Below are positions 1,138 to 24,163 of a stretch of 27,249 nucleotides of DNA, one piece after another. The notes under the pieces are model-generated. The model saw only the letters and a list, made by a program, of their open reading frames with translations. It was not told where the DNA came from and did no database searches. The stretch is from a virus. The stretch lies in the IMG/VR virus record IMGVR_UViG_3300022699_000085, positions 1 to 27,249 of that record. One strand, 5' to 3'. Position 1 is the first letter of the stretch; each line of letters starts with the position of its first letter. The translations under genes and the position numbers were made by a program.

Positions 1138-2553
1138 TTAGGGGTCAAGAACCCATTTTTTGTGCCCCACTCCAGAAACTCGATACATGTTATGCGCAGC
1201 TGCATAGTCTTTCTCAGGAACCCCAGTTTTTTGTTGCTGAAGCGCGTATCGAGAAGTTCTAGTTGCTGTTTTTCGGTCAACCCACCAGTAATCTGGCTCT
1301 GTTATCTTTTCTAGTTTAAAGCCTGCGGAGCGGTAGCTCTCTCCGTCACCCCAGCGGAGATCAGCATAAGAAACGATCGGGCCTTCACTGTCTGCCCTAA
1401 ACGCTGATACTAATTTGGATATACCGCCAAGTACTCGGCCATCAGAAGCATAACGAAGTAGCTCCCACCCGTTGTTGTTGAATCGACCTAGCCCAAACGT
1501 CGCTATAGCAACCAAACGGCCTTGGTACTCCAGACCATAAACACGGTTGAGCGCAGCTCCTGCTCCTTGCGTGTGGGTAGACTGTAGAAACAAACGAGCT
1601 TCTTCCTTGCTCGGGCGACATACAGTGCATTGCCGGGCGTAAATACGTTGAGAAGCCCCTAGCATAGCGCGGAGTCTGTTTTTGACTTTCTCCTGCTGAT
1701 CTCTCCACTCATCCTCAAATACTTGTATTAGTTTTACACCAGCTTGGTCTGCAAACTCCCACTTTTTTCTAGTCTTATCTTCTACTAGATCATCCCTATG
1801 CCACCACAAACCGTTGTACTCTATGGCTAGTTTTTGATCAGGGCAGTAAATATCGACCTCGTATGGAGGTATTACGCCGTACTTACTTTGCTCTACAACG
1901 ACTCCAAGAGACACTACAAAATCAGCAAGTTCTTGCTCGCCTATGGAAACTCTACCGACACATTTAGGGCACCCTGCACCGTTTAAATGGTTCGCGGGGG
2001 TCTGTTTAAACTCTCCATGTAGCGGGCATTTGATTAGAACTGGTTTGTGCATGCCATTAAGCCCAGAGAGATACTCATAAGTGTCGCCGTGTACTTCTTG
2101 CGCCCTGCGCAAGAATTCAGACACTCCAAGCTGTGATCGTTTTCCATTTTTCTGGTAAGAGCACTCTGTGCACCCGTGCCCGGCGAGATGAACATACGCC
2201 GCTTGCTCAAAGTCTCCGTGCTCAGGGCAAATAATCTGAACGCGCGTGCGGCTGTTATGGATTTCCATCTCAGGATAATCATAGCTATCGCCATGAACTT
2301 CACGCGCTGCAGTAACAAAACTCTCGTAGCTGTGAGCTCTAATTTTTTGTCTAGAAACAACGCCACACTTAGGGCAGCCCGCCCCATTCCGATGGTTGTT
2401 TTCTCGCTGCCAAAACGCCCCGTGCTCACGGCAGACTACCTCAACCTTTTTTCCATAGCCTTGGTACTCAACTTTAGAATAGTCGTAGCGCTTCCCGTGC
2501 TGTTGTCTTGCTTTTTCAACCCAGTCTTGTGTTGTTAGCGCTTTGCGTCCCAT
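1138..2553 (-). CDS. Free-standing homing endonuclease: DUF723-type repeats plus Vsr-like nuclease
   Basis: About 471 aa. I start it at the ATG at 2553 (MGRKALTTQDW) because AGGGCAGAGG lies just upstream; an upstream TTG at 2610 coincides with the -35 box. Three repeats of the type W/F-x-x-A-x-x-x-HGxxYDY ... CxxHGxF ... GCPxC occupy roughly residues 9-63, 75-130 and 140-195; these are the DNA-binding DUF723 modules with zinc-binding Cys/His. A Vsr/PD-(D/E)XK-like nuclease follows, with YEVDIYCPDQKLAIEYNGLWW near residues 232-252. The C-terminal 200 residues match the domain that often follows it (LLRYASDGRVLGGISKL; VSYADLRWGDG). The gene sits alone between the capsid terminator and tail-type genes, typical of an inserted mobile endonuclease. 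The substrate site is unknown. Confidence 0.85.
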   Translation of the reverse strand: MGRKALTTQDWVEKARQQHGKRYDYSKVEYQGYGKKVEVVCREHGAFWQRENNHRNGAGCPKCGVVSRQKIRAHSYESFVTAAREVHGDSYDYPEMEIHNSRTRVQIICPEHGDFEQAAYVHLAGHGCTECSYQKNGKRSQLGVSEFLRRAQEVHGDTYEYLSGLNGMHKPVLIKCPLHGEFKQTPANHLNGAGCPKCVGRVSIGEQELADFVVSLGVVVEQSKYGVIPPYEVDIYCPDQKLAIEYNGLWWHRDDLVEDKTRKKWEFADQAGVKLIQVFEDEWRDQQEKVKNRLRAMLGASQRIYARQCTVCRPSKEEARLFLQSTHTQGAGAALNRVYGLEYQGRLVAIATFGLGRFNNNGWELLRYASDGRVLGGISKLVSAFRADSEGPIVSYADLRWGDGESYRSAGFKLEKITEPDYWWVDRKTATRTSRYALQQQKTGVPEKDYAAAHNMYRVSGVGHKKWVLDP

Positions 2554-2581
2554 ACCTCTGCCCTTCGTAAAAGTTGATAAC

Positions 2582-2610
2582 AGATTAGCCTTTTTACCGT
2601 TGTACGTCAA
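2582..2610 (-). promoter_or_regulatory. Sigma70-type promoter for the homing endonuclease
   Basis: Reading the minus strand, TTGACG (2610-2605) is followed by exactly 17 bases and TAATCT (2587-2582). The predicted start is near 2576, giving a leader of about 20 bases before the ATG at 2553. It lies directly after the capsid-gene terminator, so the endonuclease would have its own transcript. Confidence 0.6.
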
Positions 2611-3603: not shown

Positions 3604-4212
3604 TTAAGCGTCGCCCGCGCCAGTCGCGGTGCTCAGCTGATGACCGGCGTTAAACTTGACCAGAATTTCGGTGAATTCACCGGAAGCATTCTTAGTCTCA
3701 GCAACGCCCTGAACCACACGCAGGGGCAGAGTGGCCGTGTTAGCGTGCGAAGCGTCGTCAACAGCAACTGCTGAAACGCCAGTTGCGGTGTTACCAACAG
3801 GGCTCTGGTCGTCGAGGCCGACGTTATTGCCGACTTCCGACTGAGCAATGCCCGAGATATCACCACTGGAGTCCACAACAGCAACCTTGTACAGGACGTT
3901 GGCGCCATCGACGACAAAAGCCGTGATGTCATCAGCGACCACATTACCCGGATAGTAGTTGCGGAAGGTCAGACCATAGACAGGGTCAGTGTACGAGCAA
4001 CCAACGAAGACGCCGACGTAGTCGATGTCATCACCAGCAGCAACACGATCAATAAGGCCATCGGTGCCGATAGCAACAAGATCACCGTGGAAGATCGCGG
4101 TCGAATTGCCCGACTCGATCTCGTAAGCGCGCTGGGCGCCGTTGTACGGTGAACCGTCGACCATCTTCACCGGAACAAGCCCGTAGGGGCCAGAAACGGT
4201 TGGATATGCCAT
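3604..4212 (-). CDS. Head-associated protein, probable capsid decoration/stabilisation (202 aa)
   Basis: The ATG at 4212 is preceded by AGGAG. The product starts MAYPTVSGPYGLVPVKMVDG and is Gly, Ala, Val and Asp rich, with beta-strand-like segments (STAIFHGDLVAIGTDGLIDRV) and almost no long helices. It lies 13 bases upstream of the major capsid gene. Proteins of this size beginning YGLVPVK next to the capsid gene recur in environmental podo- and siphoviruses. A decoration or minor head protein role is inferred from position and beta-rich composition. It has a single Cys and no catalytic motif. Confidence 0.65.
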   Translation of the reverse strand: MAYPTVSGPYGLVPVKMVDGSPYNGAQRAYEIESGNSTAIFHGDLVAIGTDGLIDRVAAGDDIDYVGVFVGCSYTDPVYGLTFRNYYPGNVVADDITAFVVDGANVLYKVAVVDSSGDISGIAQSEVGNNVGLDDQSPVGNTATGVSAVAVDDASHANTATLPLRVVQGVAETKNASGEFTEILVKFNAGHQLSTATGAGDA

Positions 4213-4246
4213 GAGATTACACTCCTAAAAGGAAAAGTGGGTAGCT

Positions 4247-4717
4247 CTAAGAGCCACGTCCAAAACTAACGGTGGATTTGCGGTCGCGGAAAAGAGGCAT
4301 CCGAGGATCATTCTCACGCATAAAGTTGTTGTCCACCGATTCAACCTGAGCTTCGCTGCTGCGCTGATAGTAAGCGTTTCGCTGCTCAACCATTTCGGTA
4401 GGCATCTTGCAAAGGATAAGGCCGCCGACCTCAACCAGTCCTGAAACTTCAGCATCAGGGTCAACATGAAGCTTCATTTCGGGGTGGTCTTCAATACGGC
4501 AGGTCTCCCAGCCTTCACGAACTTTACGCGAGAAGTTAGTCGGGTCATTAACTCCCAGCATCGACTTGCGAATCCAACGGAACGAGAACCCTTCAGCGGG
4601 ATCAGGTTCAGGCAACAGACTTGCAGGTGCCCACTGCTTCTTACGCGCAGTCGCTTCACGATCATTGTGCTCGCGAGAAACCGGACGAGCTTCACGGGTT
4701 CGAGTTGAATTAGCCAT
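4247..4717 (-). CDS. Hypothetical head-region protein (156 aa)
   Basis: I start it at the ATG at 4717 (MANSTRTREARP), which overlaps the end of the scaffold gene by 8 bases and has GGAG upstream; a longer frame to 4789 lies inside the scaffold gene and is unlikely. The first 45 residues are very basic and Arg-rich (TREARPVSREHNDREATARK). The middle has WIRKSMLGVNDPTNFSRKVREGWE, and the end is ENDPRMPLFRDRKSTVSFGRGS. Basic, probably partly disordered, possibly DNA- or scaffold-contacting inside the prohead. I do not recognise a defined family; the operon position argues for a head-assembly role. Confidence 0.65.
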   Translation of the reverse strand: MANSTRTREARPVSREHNDREATARKKQWAPASLLPEPDPAEGFSFRWIRKSMLGVNDPTNFSRKVREGWETCRIEDHPEMKLHVDPDAEVSGLVEVGGLILCKMPTEMVEQRNAYYQRSSEAQVESVDNNFMRENDPRMPLFRDRKSTVSFGRGS

Positions 4718-5816
4718 TGTTACTCTCCAGCTTCTGTACTTCGCGGGCGTAGGCTTCAGGGCTAATTCCAAGCCTTTTAGCCATCGCAACTTGCGACTGA
4801 GTTAGCACTACCCTTTTTCCCTTCGGAGTTCTTCCAGCCGGGGCGACAACGGTAGAGGGTTGCCGCTTTTTCCTTTTTGGAGGCTCGTCGTCTTCTGAGG
4901 TTTGTGCGTCCTCAAACCGACTCGGAAAGACCTCACGCATGCGAGCGTCAATTTGCTCGTAATACTCGTCAGTAGAAGGCGGAACACCGTCTTTTACCAA
5001 CTTCTGATGGACCCCCAGTGCAAAACTGGTCATCTCATCGTCTTTGCCGAACCACTCGTTGCGTTTTCCCCATTCCGCAGCTTTTGCGTCGGGCTCTGGT
5101 GCGCTAACTTGTGGCCGCGCTTGGTTATTATATACCTGTTGGTTTGTCTGTTGTAAAGCGTTGTTTTGTTGGGCTGTGACATTCTGTGCCGAATAGCGAG
5201 GAGAAAGTAAATTAGCCCTCTCTGCCTGATATGTAGCCTGAGCTAGTTTTTCCTGCGCATTTACGATCGCTTCAGAGTCGCCCATTTCATACGCATCACG
5301 GTACGCTCGCTTAGCTGCTTCTAGATTAAGCTTAGCTCTTTCTTTGGCTTGCTCAAGCGCCCAAGTCTCGCCAGACGAAAGCTCTGTGCGCAGCTTATCT
5401 CGTTCAGCCTGAAGACGACTTGCATACTCTGCCGCTGCCTGACGCTCGCGCGCAGCTTCTTCTTTAGCGCGTCGTTCGTCATGCCAAGCTTTTTTCAGCT
5501 GGTCAATGCGCTGCTTTACTTTAGCCGAGTATTCCTCTGCGGCGTCTTTTTCAAGCTCTTCAACAACATCTTCAGGCAAAGGCTTACGGTTTCGATCCTC
5601 CGGTGGAGTGTCGTCGACAATCTCAAGTTCTAGATCATCTTCAGTCTCCTGCGTGCCTTCGCTCGACTTTGGCTCTTCGGTTTCAGTGGAGACTTCGACA
5701 CCGTCACTATCTTTTAACTGGTTTTTCATCGCAGGTGGAACGCCACTATCGTCCGATCCCACGACAAACTCAGTATCGTCAAAATCGACTTCCTGATTAG
5801 CTGCGTTAGGGTCCAT
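4710..5816 (-). CDS. Scaffolding protein
   Basis: 368 aa, highly acidic at the start (NQEVDFDDTEFVVGSDDSG; then many Glu/Asp to about residue 85). A long charged coiled coil follows, about residues 85-200 (KQRIDQLKKAWHDERRAKEE and onward). Then come a Gln/Asn-rich linker (QQNNALQQTNQQVYNNQ) and a basic C-terminal region with PPKRKKRQP and a final helix (TQSQVAMAKRLGISPEAYAR). Acidic disordered N terminus, central coiled coil and basic C terminus that binds capsid subunits are standard for phage scaffolds. Position two genes upstream of the capsid gene agrees. Confidence 0.8.
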   Translation of the reverse strand: MDPNAANQEVDFDDTEFVVGSDDSGVPPAMKNQLKDSDGVEVSTETEEPKSSEGTQETEDDLELEIVDDTPPEDRNRKPLPEDVVEELEKDAAEEYSAKVKQRIDQLKKAWHDERRAKEEAARERQAAAEYASRLQAERDKLRTELSSGETWALEQAKERAKLNLEAAKRAYRDAYEMGDSEAIVNAQEKLAQATYQAERANLLSPRYSAQNVTAQQNNALQQTNQQVYNNQARPQVSAPEPDAKAAEWGKRNEWFGKDDEMTSFALGVHQKLVKDGVPPSTDEYYEQIDARMREVFPSRFEDAQTSEDDEPPKRKKRQPSTVVAPAGRTPKGKRVVLTQSQVAMAKRLGISPEAYAREVQKLESNNG

Positions 5817-6411: not shown

Positions 6412-8919
6412 TTACTCCTGTGAACGATTGCGGGTTTGCTGCATCATCTGAGCCGCTAAATCCTGCTCAGCGTCGATGCGTTTTTCAGCAAGGTCAGCTC
6501 CGGTTTCTAGCCCTGCTTTCTCAAGGTCGACTTCAGCTTTAATGATCTGCTGACGTAACTTAGAGCCGATCGAGGCCCCAGTCTGCTCCTCTTGAGAACT
6601 GATGCGAGCTGCTTCAAGCTCCATGTCCCGAAGCTTTAGCTCGTAGTCCATGCGGTCTTTGGCGATCTTACGCTGCAGCTCACCCTGCTCGATCTCAAGC
6701 TCACGCTGCTGCATTTGCAAGACCGGGTCCTGTGAACGGCGAGCGTTTTCTTCCGCCTGCGCCATCTGTTGAGCCTTGCCAGTTACACGGGGTGCAGCTT
6801 CTGCCACAAGACGTGAAATAGCCAGCTCCTGCTCTTGATCCAGACCTTTATCGTCATCCTCGTCCACTGCCGGGAGCGGAACACCCAGTTCAGTCTCGAC
6901 ACGACGACGATATTGCTCAGCAATGTGCTCGTTGATATGCGCCATGCCAGCGGCCAGCTTCATCTTGCCGGCCTCACCCTCCATCTCGATCATTTTCATG
7001 ATCTCAGGGTCCTGAGCAAACGCCATGTGCGCCTGAATATGCGCCTCGTGGTCCTGATAAGAAAAGGCCTTGACCGGCTTGCCGTTGAGCAATGCCATGT
7101 TCTCCGACATTGGGTCCATCGGCTTGATGTCGTCCTTATCCGGGACAAGCTCGTTAGCGTCCTTAATGCCCAGCGTCTCGATCATCTTGCGATGCAGAAG
7201 TGGCAGGTCGTAGAGCTGCGGAGCCTGCTGAGCCATCTGCATGGCCGCCTGATACTGAACAATGCGCTGTGACATTGTTGAGGCGTTCGGATCAGACACC
7301 GGAATAATGTTAGTCATGCTGTAGTCGCGACGGCGGGCCATAAACCCCTCATCGCCAACCGCATCGTAGTCGTACTCTTCTGGCGCCATCTCAGAGACGA
7401 TTGACTTGAGAATCTTAAACTCAGACTTCATAGCCGCGTGCATGCGCGCCTGAACAGCTGTCAGAGTCTTAAGCTGACGCTCCAGAATAGCCAGTGTCGA
7501 TCCAACTGGCGCGTTTGGCTGCATATCGCCAACACTAAGATCAGACATAGACACAAACCGCCGAGCCTCTTGGACGATCTTGTCCAGAAGTCCTGCTAGG
7601 ACTGTTGAGGGCTCCTTATAGGGCAGCGGCATAATGTTGTCTTTGATCGTGCCAGTCGGCACATCCACATCGCGGAACTCACCCGGAGCAATCGGCGTAT
7701 CACCGCCACGTATACGAAGCCCCCGCGTACGGAAGCCGCCCGGCAGGTTAGACAACGTCCCCGCGTCGACGAGCTGGCGCATAATTGACGTCGCGCCCTT
7801 GGCAAAACCACCAATGAGGTGGATAAGGCCGAAACCATAGAACCCAAAGCCCGGTATGTAGTTGTAGTGGGAGAAGTGAATCTGTTTTTGTTTCTTGTCA
7901 TCGTCTTCTGCCCAGTTGCGGTAAATTGACAAGACTTTGTTGTTGTCTTTCAGGATAGTCACAACGTATGGCAGCTCGATGCCCGTGGGTTCACCTTCTT
8001 TGTCTAGGTCCTCAAACCCTTCAAGATCAAGCTCGCAGTGAATCTCAAGCAGCGTGTAGCGATCGTCCTGAGCGGCGTCAAACCCACCAATCTCGTTCTT
8101 GCGACGCGAGATGTCGTCTTCATCAGCCATGGGATCGCCAATCTCGCACTCTTTATAAAACCCACTGACCTGCATTTTACGAATTTCATTTTTAGTCCGC
8201 TTCATGCGATGGGCGTAGCGCTGTGCGTTCTCAAGGCTTGAGGCGCCGTAGCTGACGATAAAATCTTCAGCCGGAATAAACTGAGCAACCGGACGCTCCA
8301 GTGAAGGGTCGTAGAACACCTTCTTAAACGCCGAACCTGCAATGGGTAGGTTCCACAACAACCGCTCGTGCTCTGAGCGATAATCAGCCATTTTATCGGT
8401 CAGCAAGTAATTCATGTCTTCACCGACACGAGCTGCTGCTTCTTCCTTCTCCTTATTACTCTGCCCCATCACCTTAGTGCGCACAGGACCCTGCGCCGGG
8501 AAGGTCTCGACAATGCTCTCAGACTGGAACTTCACCACAGCTTCAGCAAGCATCGGGTGGTAAACGCCAAACGCGCCTTCCCACGGCTCGGAGCGGTCTT
8601 CAATCTTAAGCCCAAGTAACTCAAGCCCGTCGTGGTATGTCTCTTCCCACTCAGCGCGCGAGAGTACATCACTTGCGTAAGCTTCGAGGAGTTCATCAGC
8701 AATGGCCGCGCACTGCTCGTCGTCAATGTATTCTGCAAGGTTAGCTGAATGTGGGATCATATCTCCCTCATCGCCCGCCTCGATGTCCAGAATCTCCTGA
8801 CCAGCGATGCTAACCTCTACGCTCTCTGGGTCTTCAATTTCAATCTCAAGTGGCGCTTCGTTTTCTGCCATTTTATCGAGGCTTTTTGGAGCACCGTACA
8901 ACGCTTTATCAATAGCCAT
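6412..8919 (-). CDS. Portal (head-tail connector) protein
   Basis: 835 aa, ATG start, immediately after the terminase gene, where a portal belongs. It has an acidic N-terminal leader (about 1-80). A region typical of large portals follows: SEPWEGAFGVYHPMLAEAVV, then FQSESIVETFPAQG and FYDPSLERPVAQFIPAEDFI. The stem/crown region is FIPGFGFYGFGLIHLIGG-like. The C-terminal 150 residues are a Gln/Glu-rich coiled coil (QQRELEIEQGELQRKIAKDR), probably the barrel extending into the capsid. It forms the dodecameric channel for DNA and docks the terminase. The length resembles P22-type portals more than the roughly 530-aa T7 type. Confidence 0.85.
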   Translation of the reverse strand: MAIDKALYGAPKSLDKMAENEAPLEIEIEDPESVEVSIAGQEILDIEAGDEGDMIPHSANLAEYIDDEQCAAIADELLEAYASDVLSRAEWEETYHDGLELLGLKIEDRSEPWEGAFGVYHPMLAEAVVKFQSESIVETFPAQGPVRTKVMGQSNKEKEEAAARVGEDMNYLLTDKMADYRSEHERLLWNLPIAGSAFKKVFYDPSLERPVAQFIPAEDFIVSYGASSLENAQRYAHRMKRTKNEIRKMQVSGFYKECEIGDPMADEDDISRRKNEIGGFDAAQDDRYTLLEIHCELDLEGFEDLDKEGEPTGIELPYVVTILKDNNKVLSIYRNWAEDDDKKQKQIHFSHYNYIPGFGFYGFGLIHLIGGFAKGATSIMRQLVDAGTLSNLPGGFRTRGLRIRGGDTPIAPGEFRDVDVPTGTIKDNIMPLPYKEPSTVLAGLLDKIVQEARRFVSMSDLSVGDMQPNAPVGSTLAILERQLKTLTAVQARMHAAMKSEFKILKSIVSEMAPEEYDYDAVGDEGFMARRRDYSMTNIIPVSDPNASTMSQRIVQYQAAMQMAQQAPQLYDLPLLHRKMIETLGIKDANELVPDKDDIKPMDPMSENMALLNGKPVKAFSYQDHEAHIQAHMAFAQDPEIMKMIEMEGEAGKMKLAAGMAHINEHIAEQYRRRVETELGVPLPAVDEDDDKGLDQEQELAISRLVAEAAPRVTGKAQQMAQAEENARRSQDPVLQMQQRELEIEQGELQRKIAKDRMDYELKLRDMELEAARISSQEEQTGASIGSKLRQQIIKAEVDLEKAGLETGADLAEKRIDAEQDLAAQMMQQTRNRSQE

Positions 8920-8928
8920 TATTTAACC

Positions 8929-11472
8929 CTAGTAGTAAGCCGCTCTCACGGGTTCAAAATCTTCTTCGTCATCACCCCACCGATCGTCGGGTAACTCAAT
9001 AAACCCACCGCTTCTAAAACGCATTAGCGCCATCACAGTGCTGTCCACCAAGTCATCGTTCGGCATCGCAGGGAACCCACAGACCTCATCTACAACCTCT
9101 TCAGCCCAACGCCTACCCGCTGGGTACCAAACAAATCCTGATGCGAACATATCAGACACAGAGTTTAGACGCATAACTTTATCACCTGTACCCCGGTGAG
9201 GTGTAAACTCTTGGACCGGCACGCCAGCCCTACGAAACTCCTGAAACAGAGGCGACCCAGAAGACTTTTTCTCAATCACAAACCAATCAGGGCCCCACTC
9301 CTTGTACTCATCATACGCAAGGCGCTTTAACTCGGGAAACTCCAAGCGCTCTTTAATGCTATTCAGCAGTATGATGTTAGCCTGCGCAACGCCGTTCTCG
9401 TCGTCTTTATAGAACACACCCCACGTTGTCAGCGCCGTGAAGTCAGCCCTAGTGTTCTTCTCCGCTGCCGCATCAAGGCTCATTATTATGTACTCACAAG
9501 GCGGGGGCTGGTCCTCTAGCCACTCTTGCCACCATTCACGCTTAACAATAGACGCTTCGCGCGATGTGGGCTGCTGCATATACTGCGCCGACCACTGGAA
9601 CGGCGGCATTGACGCTTTTGTCCGCAGGAGAGACTTAACCGGCCACTGCTCCGGCCACAGCGAGATGTATTTCTGCTCTTCAGGAGCCTCTGCAGATACG
9701 TGCTCATTCTCAAAAAGTGCTGGAAATTCAACAACTTCCCACTGATCTGAGTCCTCGTTGCGCACCATATCTTTCTGGACACGCCCGATCAAGTCCTGCT
9801 CGGCCCAGCGTGTGGCCACAATTGCCACAGACCCACCCGGCATGAGTCGAGTCCGCGCACCGTAGGCGTACCACTCGTAGGCTTTGTCAAAAACTTCAAA
9901 ATTGCCGTTGAGAATGTCCTGCTCGTTGTGGGGGTCGTCGACCACCAGCAGATGTGCGCCGCGACCTGCGATGGCACCACCAATCCCGCAATTATGAGTA
10001 AGAACCTTATCAGCAAAAAATGTGTGGTCTCCGTCGAGTAAAAAGTTAACGAAGGGCTTTTCTTCGTGCTGTTTGGCGGCTACTTTTCCGGCTCTCCGTA
10101 CTCCCAGCAATAGTTCTGATAAGTTTTGCGCTGCTCTTCTAAAACCCGCCATATACTTTTTAGTGCTGCCTGAGGGTTGTCGAACGCTAGAGACGCCTCT
10201 TTTAAGGAGCCAAACTCCGATACTACGGCCCCATCCTTTGTTTTTTGGAGGACTGTACGACCATAGTTCTTCTTGCGCTTCTTCTCCGCGCTCAGTGGGT
10301 CCGCCCCTGTTTTCAAACGGTATGCTATCGCTTCCGGCGTAACCCCTAGTTTTCTGGCCTGCTCCGCCAGTGTCTCCCCGCCAACCACTCGGTTTGTTCT
10401 GCGGTTGTTGGCTTGCTGGTGTGGGGTTTCCCAGCGACAATTCTCCGGACTGTACGGCCCATTGTTGTCTATGCGCCCAACTGTGTACCCAGCGCCCGGC
10501 GGCTCGCCCATATCCTCCAAAAAATTCTCGAACTTCAGCCAACGATCGCAGACAGTTATGCCGCGCCCGCCATAATTTTTCCACTTTGGGTTGTTTGGGT
10601 TTAAACAGCGAGACTTGATGTAATACCAACGCCGATACATGGAAGTGTTCCAAATAGCCATAAGCCCTCCTAGTTATGGCCTTAAGTCTATCCGAAATAC
10701 TCTCCACAATCAATATGTCATCGGGTTTTATATTTCTTGCGTACACCCACCCTTTGTTTTCAGTCCATATCGGGTGGTCTGCGGAGCACTCAAGCCCAGC
10801 CACAGTATAAGTAGCACTGTGCTGTGTGCGGTAAATTTTCTGTACTGTTGCGCCTCTGCCAGAATTTAATAAGTGATCTCCAACCCTTATATCGCCAGCA
10901 TTGACCAGCCCATGTTCAGTGTGCACCTTGGAATGGAGGCGTAGACACGCGAAGTACTCACCGTCTTTGTTTGTAGACCATCTGCCTGCCGATTTAGAGT
11001 CCGCTGAGAGCTTCACATCGGGGAAAATGCGCTGGTAGTCGGGCGTGCCGACCAAATTTCTGACCTTACGGCCAAAATCTGTAGCCAAATCAGAGGTATG
11101 CGAGACCATCATGATCTTTTTATCGGGCCAATTGCCGATAAACCACGCCGGAAAGAAAATTGAAGTCAGCTGAGACTTACCAAATCGCGGTGCGATAGAG
11201 ACTGTGACACGATCTTTGCGCCCGTGGGCCAAATCTTCTAAATACTCGGCTAACTGCCTGTGGTGAGGGCCAATTTTATAGTCAGGCATCATCGCCTGCG
11301 CGAAGTCCAGCAGTGACGTCCTAGCCCGCTCTGCTTTTTTGCGCTCTTCTAGCTCCTCAACGACTTCTAATAGCTTAGCCTGCTCACCGGGAGAGAATTT
11401 ATGCAAGTTCTGCATAAGAACTTTTAGCTCTTCTTGCGAAAACTGCTTTTGTTCTGCCGCTACTGAACTCAA
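8929..11472 (-). CDS. Terminase large subunit, intein-containing precursor
   Basis: 847 aa precursor; removal of a 319-residue intein (176-494) would leave about 528 aa, a normal TerL length. N-terminal ATPase: Walker A VSIAPRFGKS (91-100). The insertion falls in the conserved segment GEYFA|CGIGGAIAGRGAH, just before Walker B LLVVDD (508-513). C-terminal RNase H-like nuclease: MSLDAAAEKNTRADFTA with its acidic residue and NDDLVDS near the end. It cuts and pumps DNA into the prohead through the portal. The annotated start is TTG at 11472, because an in-frame TAA precedes it directly; the next Met is at 11415, so the true start is uncertain. It lies 7 bases after the small subunit candidate. 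Confidence 0.92.
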   Translation of the reverse strand: MSSVAAEQKQFSQEELKVLMQNLHKFSPGEQAKLLEVVEELEERKKAERARTSLLDFAQAMMPDYKIGPHHRQLAEYLEDLAHGRKDRVTVSIAPRFGKSQLTSIFFPAWFIGNWPDKKIMMVSHTSDLATDFGRKVRNLVGTPDYQRIFPDVKLSADSKSAGRWSTNKDGEYFACLRLHSKVHTEHGLVNAGDIRVGDHLLNSGRGATVQKIYRTQHSATYTVAGLECSADHPIWTENKGWVYARNIKPDDILIVESISDRLKAITRRAYGYLEHFHVSALVLHQVSLFKPKQPKVEKLWRARHNCLRSLAEVREFFGGYGRAAGRWVHSWAHRQQWAVQSGELSLGNPTPASQQPQNKPSGWRGDTGGAGQKTRGYAGSDSIPFENRGGPTERGEEAQEELWSYSPPKNKGWGRSIGVWLLKRGVSSVRQPSGSTKKYMAGFRRAAQNLSELLLGVRRAGKVAAKQHEEKPFVNFLLDGDHTFFADKVLTHNCGIGGAIAGRGAHLLVVDDPHNEQDILNGNFEVFDKAYEWYAYGARTRLMPGGSVAIVATRWAEQDLIGRVQKDMVRNEDSDQWEVVEFPALFENEHVSAEAPEEQKYISLWPEQWPVKSLLRTKASMPPFQWSAQYMQQPTSREASIVKREWWQEWLEDQPPPCEYIIMSLDAAAEKNTRADFTALTTWGVFYKDDENGVAQANIILLNSIKERLEFPELKRLAYDEYKEWGPDWFVIEKKSSGSPLFQEFRRAGVPVQEFTPHRGTGDKVMRLNSVSDMFASGFVWYPAGRRWAEEVVDEVCGFPAMPNDDLVDSTVMALMRFRSGGFIELPDDRWGDDEEDFEPVRAAYY
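9991..10947 (-). other. Intein inserted in terminase large subunit
   Basis: 319 codons. Intein residue 1 is Cys (TGT at 10945-10947). Block A is CLRLHSKVHTEHGLVNAGDI followed by RVGDHLL. Block B carries the splicing His in GLECSADHPIWTENKGW. At the far end, FVNFLLDGDHTFFADKVLTHN is blocks F/G, with the terminal His-Asn and the +1 extein Cys at 9988-9990. All the residues needed for class 1 splicing are present. The linker between the halves (about residues 271-465) has no DOD or HNH endonuclease in the intein frame. It is instead an out-of-frame reading of the nested HNH gene. The splicing parts alone total about 125 residues, like a mini-intein. Confidence 0.9.
10080..10661 (-). CDS. HNH-type homing endonuclease nested out of frame inside the intein
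   Basis: 193 aa on the same strand as terminase but in another frame. The ATG at 10661 has AGGAGG about 4 bases upstream, one of the best ribosome binding sites in the window; it stops at a TAG at 10080. The N-terminal nuclease part reads RRWYYIKSRCLNPNNPKW, NYGGRGITVCDRWLKFENFL and GRIDNNGPYSPENCRWET followed by QQANNRR, the pattern of the HNH/AP2-associated phage endonucleases. A helix-turn-helix (LAEQARKLGVTPEAIAYRL) and a NUMOD1-like segment (EFGSLKEASLAFDN ... NYCWEYG) follow and should bind DNA. The relatives usually have LDRIDN where this has VGRIDN, so activity is not certain. It probably drives spread of the intein into intein-free terminase genes. Confidence 0.88.
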   Translation of the reverse strand: MAIWNTSMYRRWYYIKSRCLNPNNPKWKNYGGRGITVCDRWLKFENFLEDMGEPPGAGYTVGRIDNNGPYSPENCRWETPHQQANNRRTNRVVGGETLAEQARKLGVTPEAIAYRLKTGADPLSAEKKRKKNYGRTVLQKTKDGAVVSEFGSLKEASLAFDNPQAALKSIWRVLEEQRKTYQNYCWEYGEPEK

Positions 11473-11479
11473 TTAAGCA

Positions 11480-12082
11480 TCACTCTTCGTTGAGAATGTC
11501 TTCGGCAGTTACACTCTGCGCTAACTGCTGCGGGTTGTTCGCAGGCTCAACAATCTCCGCATCGCTTACATCACCGTCGATCAGCCGTGAGAGCTTGTTA
11601 CGCAGCAAATCTTCCAGTTCCTCAGTGCTCTGGTGCTTGACTGTAACTTCTTGGCGCTCGGTGAAAAGGCCCACATCCGTGATCTTGCCCAGCAGCTCAA
11701 GCGCGCGCATGCGGATTTTTGGGTCATCGTCGTTAGACTCTTCGAGCAGACGGTTTGTGACGTACGTCCGCACCTGCTGAGCATCTTTAATGACCATGTG
11801 GTCATACTCAGAGAGCAACGTGTCTAAGTGTCGCATAACACCGGGCAGCTGTTTCTCATACTTAGTAGGCACGCGGGCTGTTTCAAATAGGTCTCTCGCA
11901 CGCTCAGCATCAGTTTCGTCGGTTGTAGCTTCTTTGTCGCCCAGCGCCGCAAGAAAATCAGCCGTGTTAGCAGCTGCAAAAATCTCTTCACGCTCAGTAA
12001 GCTTTTCTGTCTGAGGCTCCATCGGCATCTGCTCCAGCGGCGGGACGAGGTCTTTGTCGTCTAAGAGAAACTCAAGCGCCAT
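11480..12082 (-). CDS. Terminase small subunit candidate
   Basis: 200 aa, directly upstream of the large subunit with a 7-base gap. N-terminal acidic and Pro-rich part, then helices: PTKYEKQLPGVMRHLDTLLS, QVRTYVTNRLLEESNDDDPK and IRMRALELLGKITDVGLFTE. The pattern VRxYVTNRLxEE...ALELLGKITDVGLF is seen in small terminase-like proteins of environmental phages; it would recognise DNA for packaging and regulate TerL. No classical N-terminal HTH is clear. It overlaps nothing and follows the TraR-like gene by 2 bases. The role is based on gene order plus this helix pattern. Confidence 0.7.
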   Translation of the reverse strand: MALEFLLDDKDLVPPLEQMPMEPQTEKLTEREEIFAAANTADFLAALGDKEATTDETDAERARDLFETARVPTKYEKQLPGVMRHLDTLLSEYDHMVIKDAQQVRTYVTNRLLEESNDDDPKIRMRALELLGKITDVGLFTERQEVTVKHQSTEELEDLLRNKLSRLIDGDVSDAEIVEPANNPQQLAQSVTAEDILNEE

Positions 12083-20817: not shown

Positions 20818-21966
20818 ATGAAGAACCTGACACATGAGCAGAGATTGCAGCGCAGTCACATCGCGCTGATGCGCTCGCCCAAGTTTGCCTTGCTCTCCGG
20901 CGTCCTACTGCTGGGTGAGAGCCGGGTGAAGAGTGGTGTGCCCACGGCGTACACCAATGGCTGCGATAAGTACTACGGCAAAGAGTTCATGGACAAGCTC
21001 AATGAGAAGGAACTCAACTTTGTTGTGGCTCACGAGAACTTCCATGTGCTCTACAAACACATGACCACGTGGCGCAAGCTCTGGGAGGAGGATGCGATGC
21101 TGACCAACATGGCGTGTGACTTTGTTATCAACCAGCAGATCGTCGACCTCGACCCAACGGGTGAAATTGTCAAGATGCCTGACATCGGTGGCTGCCTCGA
21201 TGAGAAGTACCGTGGCTGGGACGCCAAGCAGGTGTATGACGACCTCAAGCGCAACGGCACTGGTGACGGCGGGCAGGACAGCTTTGATGAGCATGACTTT
21301 GAGCACGCCAAGCAGATGACTGATGAGGCGCGTAAGGAGTTGGAGCAGGCCATTGACCAAGCCGCGCGACAAGGAGACATACTGGCTGGCAAGCTCGGTG
21401 GTAACTCCGCGCGCGACATCGGTGCTATACCTGAGCCGCAGGTTGACTGGCGTGAGCAGCTCCAAGAGTTTGTTCAGTCTGCCTGTGCCGGGCGTGACAG
21501 TTCGACGTGGCGTAGGCCGAATCGACGCTGGCTGGCTGATGGCCTGTATATGCCCTCGCCGTTCTCTGAGTCTATTGGCCCCATGGTGATTGGCGTTGAC
21601 ACTTCAGGATCAATCGGCCCTGAGACTGTCAATCAGTTTCTTGCGGAAGTCGTGAAGATCACCGACGACATTCCGCCTGAGCGTTTGCATCTGCTCTATT
21701 GGGACAGCCACGTGGCGCGAGAGGAGGTGTATATGCCCGGTGAGTACGAGTCACTGACTAGCTCGACCAAGCCGATGGGTGGTGGCGGCACTGACCCTAA
21801 CTGTGTCAAGGAGTTTGTTGACTCAATGGGTACAAAGCCTGAGCTAGTGCTGATGCTGACTGACGGCTTTATTTTCGGCGGCTGGCCCAACTTCAACGAA
21901 CCCACTTTGTGGGTTTCCACCAGCGACAATGTCTCGCCATACGGCAAGACTATTCATATCAATTAA
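20818..21966 (+). CDS. VWA-like metallopeptidase-type protein (DUF2201-like), AAA+ partner
   Basis: 382 aa. The N-terminal half has FVVAHENFHVLYKH with HExxH at residues 72-76, a zinc metallopeptidase motif. The middle is an acidic linker and helix (about 140-190). The C-terminal half is VWA-like: VIGVDTSGSIGPETV with the MIDAS-type DxSGS at 261-265, GGGGTDP at 321-327 and LMLTDGF at 346-351. This domain order fits the DUF2201-type putative metallopeptidases. Paired with a MoxR-like ATPase it resembles the CobS/CobT, NorQ/NorD and RavA/ViaA pairs, but with a possible protease domain. Target unknown. Confidence 0.85.
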   Translation: MKNLTHEQRLQRSHIALMRSPKFALLSGVLLLGESRVKSGVPTAYTNGCDKYYGKEFMDKLNEKELNFVVAHENFHVLYKHMTTWRKLWEEDAMLTNMACDFVINQQIVDLDPTGEIVKMPDIGGCLDEKYRGWDAKQVYDDLKRNGTGDGGQDSFDEHDFEHAKQMTDEARKELEQAIDQAARQGDILAGKLGGNSARDIGAIPEPQVDWREQLQEFVQSACAGRDSSTWRRPNRRWLADGLYMPSPFSESIGPMVIGVDTSGSIGPETVNQFLAEVVKITDDIPPERLHLLYWDSHVAREEVYMPGEYESLTSSTKPMGGGGTDPNCVKEFVDSMGTKPELVLMLTDGFIFGGWPNFNEPTLWVSTSDNVSPYGKTIHIN

Positions 21967-23644: not shown

Positions 23645-24163
23645 ATGAAGCGGTGTGATACATGCGGGGAGGACCTTCCCGACAAAATGTTTTGGGGTGC
23701 TAAGCGCAGACCCATGCCTACGTGCACACCTTGCAGACGTAAGGAGGCTCGCAAACAGAAGTACCGCAGGGAGAAGATGAAGAAGCTCCGAGAAGACAAG
23801 CGCCGCGAGTTGAATAGCGCCATGACGGAGCAGGGCAAACTTATACGCGATACCAATGTGTATGCTGCTGTGATGGAGGTGAACAGGATAATCTCTCGCA
23901 TTGACAACAAGATTAAGAAGTACGCTGATAAGTTGTCGTACGGTGAGGCGACAGTACGCACTGAGGGGGCGCTCCGACATCAGTGGCAGAGGCGGGACTA
24001 CTTTGAAGAGGTTAGAGATTTACTGTACTCTGATGCGAAGCGTGGGGTAGACAGGCCGTTGGAGTACTATCTAACCAACACCTTCCTCCTCCACAAGCAC
24101 GGGTTTCCCGTAGTTGTAACAGATGTTGACCCCAACGAGGAGCACAACAATGCCAACAGTTGA
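23645..24163 (+). CDS. Zinc-finger, basic coiled-coil protein (172 aa)
   Basis: ATG at 23645. The N terminus MKRCDTCGEDLPDKMFWGAK has CxxC, and the second pair is CTPCRRKEARKQKYR, so a treble-clef-type zinc finger (residues 4-32) continues into a very basic helix (KQKYRREKMKKLREDKRREL). The rest is helical and charged, ending with ATVRTEGALRHQWQRRDYFE and a C-terminal strand. The zinc finger plus basic helix resembles endonuclease VII/HNH-like or nucleic-acid-binding phage proteins, but no His-Asn-His motif is visible. DNA or RNA binding is likely; catalysis is not supported. Confidence 0.72.
   Translation: MKRCDTCGEDLPDKMFWGAKRRPMPTCTPCRRKEARKQKYRREKMKKLREDKRRELNSAMTEQGKLIRDTNVYAAVMEVNRIISRIDNKIKKYADKLSYGEATVRTEGALRHQWQRRDYFEEVRDLLYSDAKRGVDRPLEYYLTNTFLLHKHGFPVVVTDVDPNEEHNNANS

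Follow-up and report, generated by a model that had tools for sequence, protein, structure and literature searches.

Predicted splicing and endonuclease genes in two overlapping frames of a viral terminase intein, with related inteins in many viruses

In a 27,249-nucleotide stretch of viral DNA (positions 1 to 27,249 of IMG/VR record IMGVR_UViG_3300022699_000085; hereafter the window), the gene for the terminase large subunit (TerL) carries an intein, and the intein encloses a complete HNH endonuclease open reading frame (ORF) in another frame of the same strand. We regard this, with high confidence, as a mobile intein in which a single DNA stretch encodes splicing and homing in two overlapping frames. 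The computed basis comprises both ORFs, their conserved phase, the avoidance of stops, purifying selection on the HNH, the splicing residues and fold, a sporadic distribution and empty sites in relatives; from it we infer splicing, independent translation, DNA cleavage and homing. The features, all on the minus strand, are as follows.

8929..11472 (-): TerL ORF holding the intein; 847-aa precursor, putative TTG start as listed
9991..10947 (-): intein, 319 aa; C1 at 10947, HN end with N319 at 9991, then Cys+1
10678..10947 (-): N-terminal splicing half, residues 1-90; AlphaFold2 pLDDT ~76-92 per 10-residue block
9991..10107 (-): C-terminal splicing half, residues 281-319; AlphaFold2 pLDDT ~85-91, conserved HN/C end
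10168..10659 (-): intein-frame linker, residues 97-260; mostly pLDDT <50, a second-frame reading of the HNH gene
10080..10661 (-): predicted HNH endonuclease ORF, 193 aa, ATG to TAG; +1 relative to the intein frame; phrog_3377
10666..10671 (-): AGGAGG Shine-Dalgarno (SD) sequence, 4-base spacer to the ATG of the HNH ORF
9988..9990 (-): Cys+1 codon of the C-extein; the closest intein-free TerLs (L003-L016) have Val or Ile at this position

The TerL ORF (11472-8929) is free of interruption over all 847 codons and matches phrog_38 (E 6e-92) and TIGR01630 (E 7e-13). The intein separates the Walker A region from the DDPH motif, and the HNH ORF (10661-10080) lies wholly within it, position 1 of each HNH codon being position 2 of an intein codon. 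One continuous ORF is not the arrangement of a fractured gene or split intein. A group I or II intron was considered and dropped, as Rfam gave no intron match in the window at gathering score, nor in 8900-11500 at E up to 1. Several endonuclease genes lie on the window contig: a 490-aa ORF at 1138-2610 (-) that matches HNH and homing endonuclease families (phrog_559, E 3e-95), and endonuclease-like ORFs at 20818-21966 (+; phrog_1314, E 4e-77) and 23645-24163 (+; phrog_2340, E 4e-6).

A sequence-only reading of the window had described the complete HNH ORF out of frame in the TerL intein (10947-9991), and its coordinates and description are correct. The 193-aa product matches phrog_3377, 'HNH endonuclease', at E 1.1e-45 and phrog_374 at E 4e-41; a Pfam search of the same ORF gave no HNH match. 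Its structure was modelled with a mean pLDDT of 89.9, from the very bases whose intein-frame linker is mostly below 50. The best Foldseek match of the model is I-HmuI (PDB 1u3e), with a probability of 0.99 but a modest E of 3.5e-3, and the VIA comparisons are likewise modest structural matches (Z 7.4 against I-HmuI over HNH residues 127-192, and 6.1 against PacI over residues 1-108). A PDB sequence search with HNH profiles returned no meaningful relative. Catalysis is thus predicted from membership of an HNH family that lies far from solved structures.

Scans of viral contigs recovered 20 further TerL inteins at the same site, each with a nested HNH at +1 and with both frames open. Compared with the window, they are 32-49% identical in the intein frame and 46-68% in the HNH. 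Every homologue at this TerL site comes from a metagenomic contig, and two contigs are listed under two locus numbers (the L numbers used here). Megablast of the window against phages gave no match, a scan of bacterial genome contigs for prophage copies returned just two distant ribonucleotide reductase inteins without the nested design, and a scan of plasmids gave nothing stronger than weak Hint or HNH matches. Some homologues hold additional in-frame insertions. A second intein-like insert is present in the TerL Walker A region of L082/L178 (~1500-2480 in L082 coordinates) and L180, and is absent from L083, which is near-identical to L082; a further insertion of ~840 bases is found in the TerL C-extein of L170 (~3880-4725) and L183.

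The start of the HNH ORF points to separate expression. The AGGAGG that had been noted about 4 bases ahead of the ATG is present at 10671-10666, with a 4-base spacer, and an SD-like motif precedes the HNH start in 21/21 homologues, whereas its background in these inteins is 15%. For L170 and L180 the motif table uses a coordinate three bases downstream of the HNH ATG. Since the two frames overlap throughout, the HNH could instead be made by programmed ribosomal frameshifting from TerL, which would give a fusion of the N-terminal intein half to the HNH in place of a product of internal initiation. A start codon and an SD-like motif of its own in every member (21/21) make such a fusion improbable.

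The splicing halves, described as intact from the sequence, are so by residue conservation and by predicted fold. Residues C1, S55-x-x-H58, W61, G66 and L316-N319 (including H318) are invariant in an alignment of 20 relatives, and Cys+1 is present; the window intein thus has the class 1-type residues at position 1, the block B His, the C-terminal His-Asn and position +1. The solved inteins nearest by profile search are gp41-1 (E 4e-10) and NrdJ-1 (E 8e-6). Residues 1-90 and 281-319 were modelled by AlphaFold2 as a confident Hint fold, for which the best Foldseek match is gp41-1 (6qaz, E 8e-6). We conclude that the insert is a class 1-type intein with a complete splicing domain, whose splicing is predicted from these residues and this model. 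The intein frame itself gave no endonuclease match, so the in-frame endonuclease of a canonical bifunctional intein is not found here.

The insert might nevertheless remain unspliced in TerL as a tolerated loop, as has been proposed for the ShiLan domain, a 'hidden' out-of-frame HNH in actinobacteriophage DNA methylases (Arsenault, Gosselin and Gogarten 2025, PMC11855218). A long, poorly folded linker could indeed impair splicing. We consider this very unlikely: all 20 inteins share C1, H58, H318, N319 and Cys+1, a Hint fold is predicted for the halves, and a permanent loop would part the Walker A region from the DDPH motif in an essential gene.

The distribution of the insert suggests mobility. 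The TerLs nearest to the window (88-91% identical) are intein-free, and in the TerL tree the window sequence groups among intein-free TerLs with support of 100/100; this tree implies at least 6 gains or losses of the intein. In TerLs ~90% identical, the empty site reads GEYFA/VGIGGAIAGRG. Position +1 is Val or Ile in the nearest empty sites (L003-L016) and Cys in the window, so the window Cys probably came by coconversion; together these comparisons suggest recent homing with coconversion at the window terL. Splicing-domain and extein identities are moreover uncoupled, at 57% vs 46% in L163 and 42% vs 60% in L196. The tree and the uncoupled identities amount to the sporadic distribution expected of an HNH homing endonuclease.

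HNH proteins beside terminases take part in genome packaging in some phages. Such proteins are named in PMC12613952. The host gene being terL, the nested HNH might likewise be a packaging partner of the terminase with no part in homing. Close relatives do without the HNH, however, and nested genes of this kind are also found in inteins of DNA polymerase A and of helicases, which leaves a packaging role highly improbable.

That both frames are open at once is difficult to ascribe to chance. Over the HNH ORF the window has 0 stops in the intein frame and 13 in the remaining (third) frame. For equal base use, a frame of 193 codons stays open with a chance of (61/64)^193, ~1e-4, in agreement with the initial estimate of about 1 in 10,000. 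Synonymous shuffling of the window HNH with its own codons gave a mean of 7.7 stops in the intein frame and left it open in 5 of 100,000 cases (P 5e-5), and the frame is open in the 20 further TerL inteins as well. When codons were drawn from the usage of the TerL extein, 12.3 stops were expected and 0/20,000 shuffles were open. For the 21 nested HNHs, own-codon shuffling predicts 5-11 stops per gene against 0 observed; no gene has a P(open) above 0.002, and most have 1e-4 or less. Distant members have an identity of 0.336 at four-fold synonymous third bases, a level close to saturation, so most lineages count as separate tests of frame openness. The means by which stops are avoided is visible in the codons. 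Among pyrimidine-ending codons before AA, AG or GA in the 21 genes, 0/422 end in T, whereas the T-ending share is 51% in the rest of these genes and 57% in free-standing relatives; this lack is the footprint of stop avoidance. Every ORF found to enclose an HNH out of frame either has intein features or is cut by a contig end. The contrast between open nested and closed free-standing genes is partly circular, the nested set having been recognised by its open frame.

A recent insertion of the HNH into an intein whose frame is open by luck, with no selection, would be conceivable for a single new event, and for the second HNH family described below, nested at +2, the median P of 0.04 is not negligible. 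For the +1 class it is refuted by the 21 genes, none of which has a P(open) above 0.002, and by the near saturation of synonymous sites between them, so that luck is an extremely unlikely explanation.

Substitutions between close relatives indicate what each frame is selected for. Four close pairs provide just 23 changes, 15 of which are synonymous in the HNH and nonsynonymous in the intein (4.8 expected), while 3 are nonsynonymous in both frames (10.2 expected). This comparison of both frames, which had been put forward as a check on dual coding, bears it out. The HNH amino-acid sequence is under selection, whereas the intein frame is selected for the absence of stops and its linker residues are free to change. 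The sequence-only reading had suggested that selection keeps the intein frame so that splicing stays possible; the shuffles and the homologues uphold a selected stop-free frame, with the refinement that selection acts on the absence of stops and not on the linker residues. Linker residue conservation is 0.365 vs a codon-shuffled expectation of 0.286, a difference that we did not accept as amino-acid selection because stop avoidance and shared descent can yield it.

Two homologues have lost most of the HNH. In L181 the HNH core is gone and its C-terminal part kept, and in L182 nearly all of the HNH is gone and its frame is full of stops; in both, the intein frame is open and ends LTHN/C. An HNH frame full of stops beside a conserved intein frame had been named as the pattern that would refute dual coding. 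It occurs once, in L182, but there the HNH is almost wholly deleted. The deletions preserve the phase of the intein, on which the host gene depends; both loci fit a degenerate stage of the homing cycle, and L182 looks like such a stage rather than a contradiction of dual coding.

We propose the following sequence of events. First, the TerL frame would be translated into the precursor, in which the intein halves would fold as a Hint domain and excise themselves, the approximately 190 linker residues forming a loosely structured excursion from that domain. Second, the +1 frame of the same mRNA would yield a separate HNH endonuclease from its own Shine-Dalgarno sequence and ATG. Third, this enzyme would be expected to nick or cut the empty terL site, where ...GEYFA meets (V/C)G(I/V)GGAIAGRG..., and repair off the intein-bearing copy would insert the intein and convert the flanking codon to the Cys needed for splicing. 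Selection would keep the HNH sequence for mobility and the intein frame stop-free because TerL is essential, and loss of the HNH through an in-phase deletion would leave a splicing intein.

Two profile scans extended the design beyond this site, with 133 further distinct viral inteins, all open and continuous and nearly all of nested-HNH design. The total beyond the window is over 150 viral inteins, so that the arrangement noted in the window is not only real but a widespread class (20 TerL and 133 further inteins). The 133 were retrieved with alignments that include the linker, which over-represents nested cases, and the figures are counts and not a frequency. Among them, 63 hold an HNH of the window's family at +1, with one more probable case; at least 61, plus most of 7 missed by a simple motif, hold an HNH_3-like protein at +2; none holds an in-frame HNH; and the ORF nested in L350 is probably no HNH. 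Among inteins reached from the window intein by weak matches, window-family HNHs at +1 also occur in TerL inteins at other sites, in DNA polymerase A inteins (L259 and L266) and in helicase inteins (SNF2-type, L229; DEAD/ResIII, L161). The second, unrelated family (Pfam HNH_3) is nested at +2 in terminase inteins at another site (L184, L185, L186, L188, L191, L193, L194, L269, L270 and L271, including isolate phages Highwayman and TJE1); the HNH is without annotation in three phage genomes among these cases. Isolate phages with nested out-of-frame HNH ORFs are Caulobacter GB2A, Acinetobacter Highwayman, Rhodobacteraceae LS06 and Tetrasphaera TJE1, and in the isolate genomes examined the annotation at such loci is terminase or polymerase alone. 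Caulobacter phage GB2A (OR260089; nested locus L266, 3229-3870) is a cultivable test system. Indels can occur in metagenomic contigs, but assembly or sequencing frameshifts at both junctions that disguise an ordinary in-frame HNH are practically inconceivable, already refuted by the same phase in 21 TerL contigs from many metagenomes and 133 further inteins and by the four isolate phages; with the shuffling and the recurrence of the open second frame in 20 homologues, chance and assembly error were both dropped as explanations.

Each HNH family has a fixed phase relative to the intein, +1 for the first and +2 for HNH_3. The +2 class has 2.7 stops expected and a median P(open) of 0.04; the +1 class has 7.0 stops expected. 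In free-standing HNHs of the first family, the frame used by inteins has 9.4 stops per 100 codons vs 4.8 in the other, and as the used frame is the richer in stops, ease of staying open does not explain the +1 phase; one ancestral insertion with later spread is the simpler account. At the terminase site where relatives hold a nested HNH_3, L192 (3849-4235) has a 129-aa mini-intein, a natural endonuclease-free form. L189 (3470-6145) appears to hold two inteins within a single terminase ORF, and the first of them is a mini-intein.

The design resembles several known systems and departs from each. In canonical bifunctional inteins, with in-frame LAGLIDADG or HNH, the Hint halves are likewise interrupted by an endonuclease-coding segment; the window endonuclease lies in another frame, outside the intein protein. 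Fractured genes (Dassa et al. 2009) reportedly pair split inteins of the gp41-1/NrdJ-1 type with a free-standing endonuclease between the halves. They share with the window an endonuclease that is a separate protein encoded between intein halves, and gp41-1 and NrdJ-1 are its closest solved splicing domains; in the window, however, the intein is contiguous, the endonuclease overlaps the halves rather than separating them, and it is an HNH rather than an EDxHD enzyme. I-HmuI is the HNH homing endonuclease of a group I intron, whereas the window HNH lies in an intein, with no Rfam intron found. The nearest published case found is the ShiLan domain, which also is an HNH out of frame in an uninterrupted phage gene whose own frame stays open, with a sporadic distribution that suggests homing. 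The ShiLan domain has a GTG start, no intein or intron splicing domain found and no ribosome-binding site, and lies in a dispensable methylase (PMC11855218); in the window a full Hint splicing domain lies in an essential host gene, and the HNH has an AGGAGG-ATG start. The complete splicing domain sets the window apart from ShiLan, the phase of the endonuclease from ordinary inteins, and contiguity from fractured genes. On overlapping frames in actinobacteriophages, PMC11855218 cites a preprint by Gosselin, Arsenault and Gogarten (2025, bioRxiv 2025.01.02.630785; inteins with 'non-canonical architecture') and Gorbalenya 1998, 'Non-canonical inteins' (PMC147447). As cited there, both may describe inteins like that of the window, and priority may be theirs.

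Nesting is a genuine and mostly overlooked route to a mobile intein, in which the HNH probably spreads the insert. The textbook view places the endonuclease domain in frame within the intein; here one DNA stretch serves a splicing protein and a separate nuclease, and this dual demand falls on an essential gene, across many viruses. It explains the poorly folded Arg- or Ser/Thr-rich linkers of phage inteins as places where an unannotated nuclease gene, missed by annotation pipelines, is concealed. Selection on overlapping genes can also be measured in this natural setting, where free-standing HNHs and HNH-deleted inteins serve as internal controls. As gp41-1 and NrdJ-1, the solved inteins nearest to the splicing domain, are split, the question of how split inteins arose becomes open to test. 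More tentatively, and as a possibility we rate below even, phage inteins with the endonuclease as a separate overlapping gene may form a class that is large and old but has mostly gone unrecognised, assembled at least twice from two unrelated HNH families with fixed phases of +1 and +2, in which splicing and homing are uncoupled proteins with separate expression and which could be the missing step to fractured genes and naturally split inteins. If this is true, the endonuclease being already independent, an intein whose linker gained a stop followed by a restart would become split and keep both functions.
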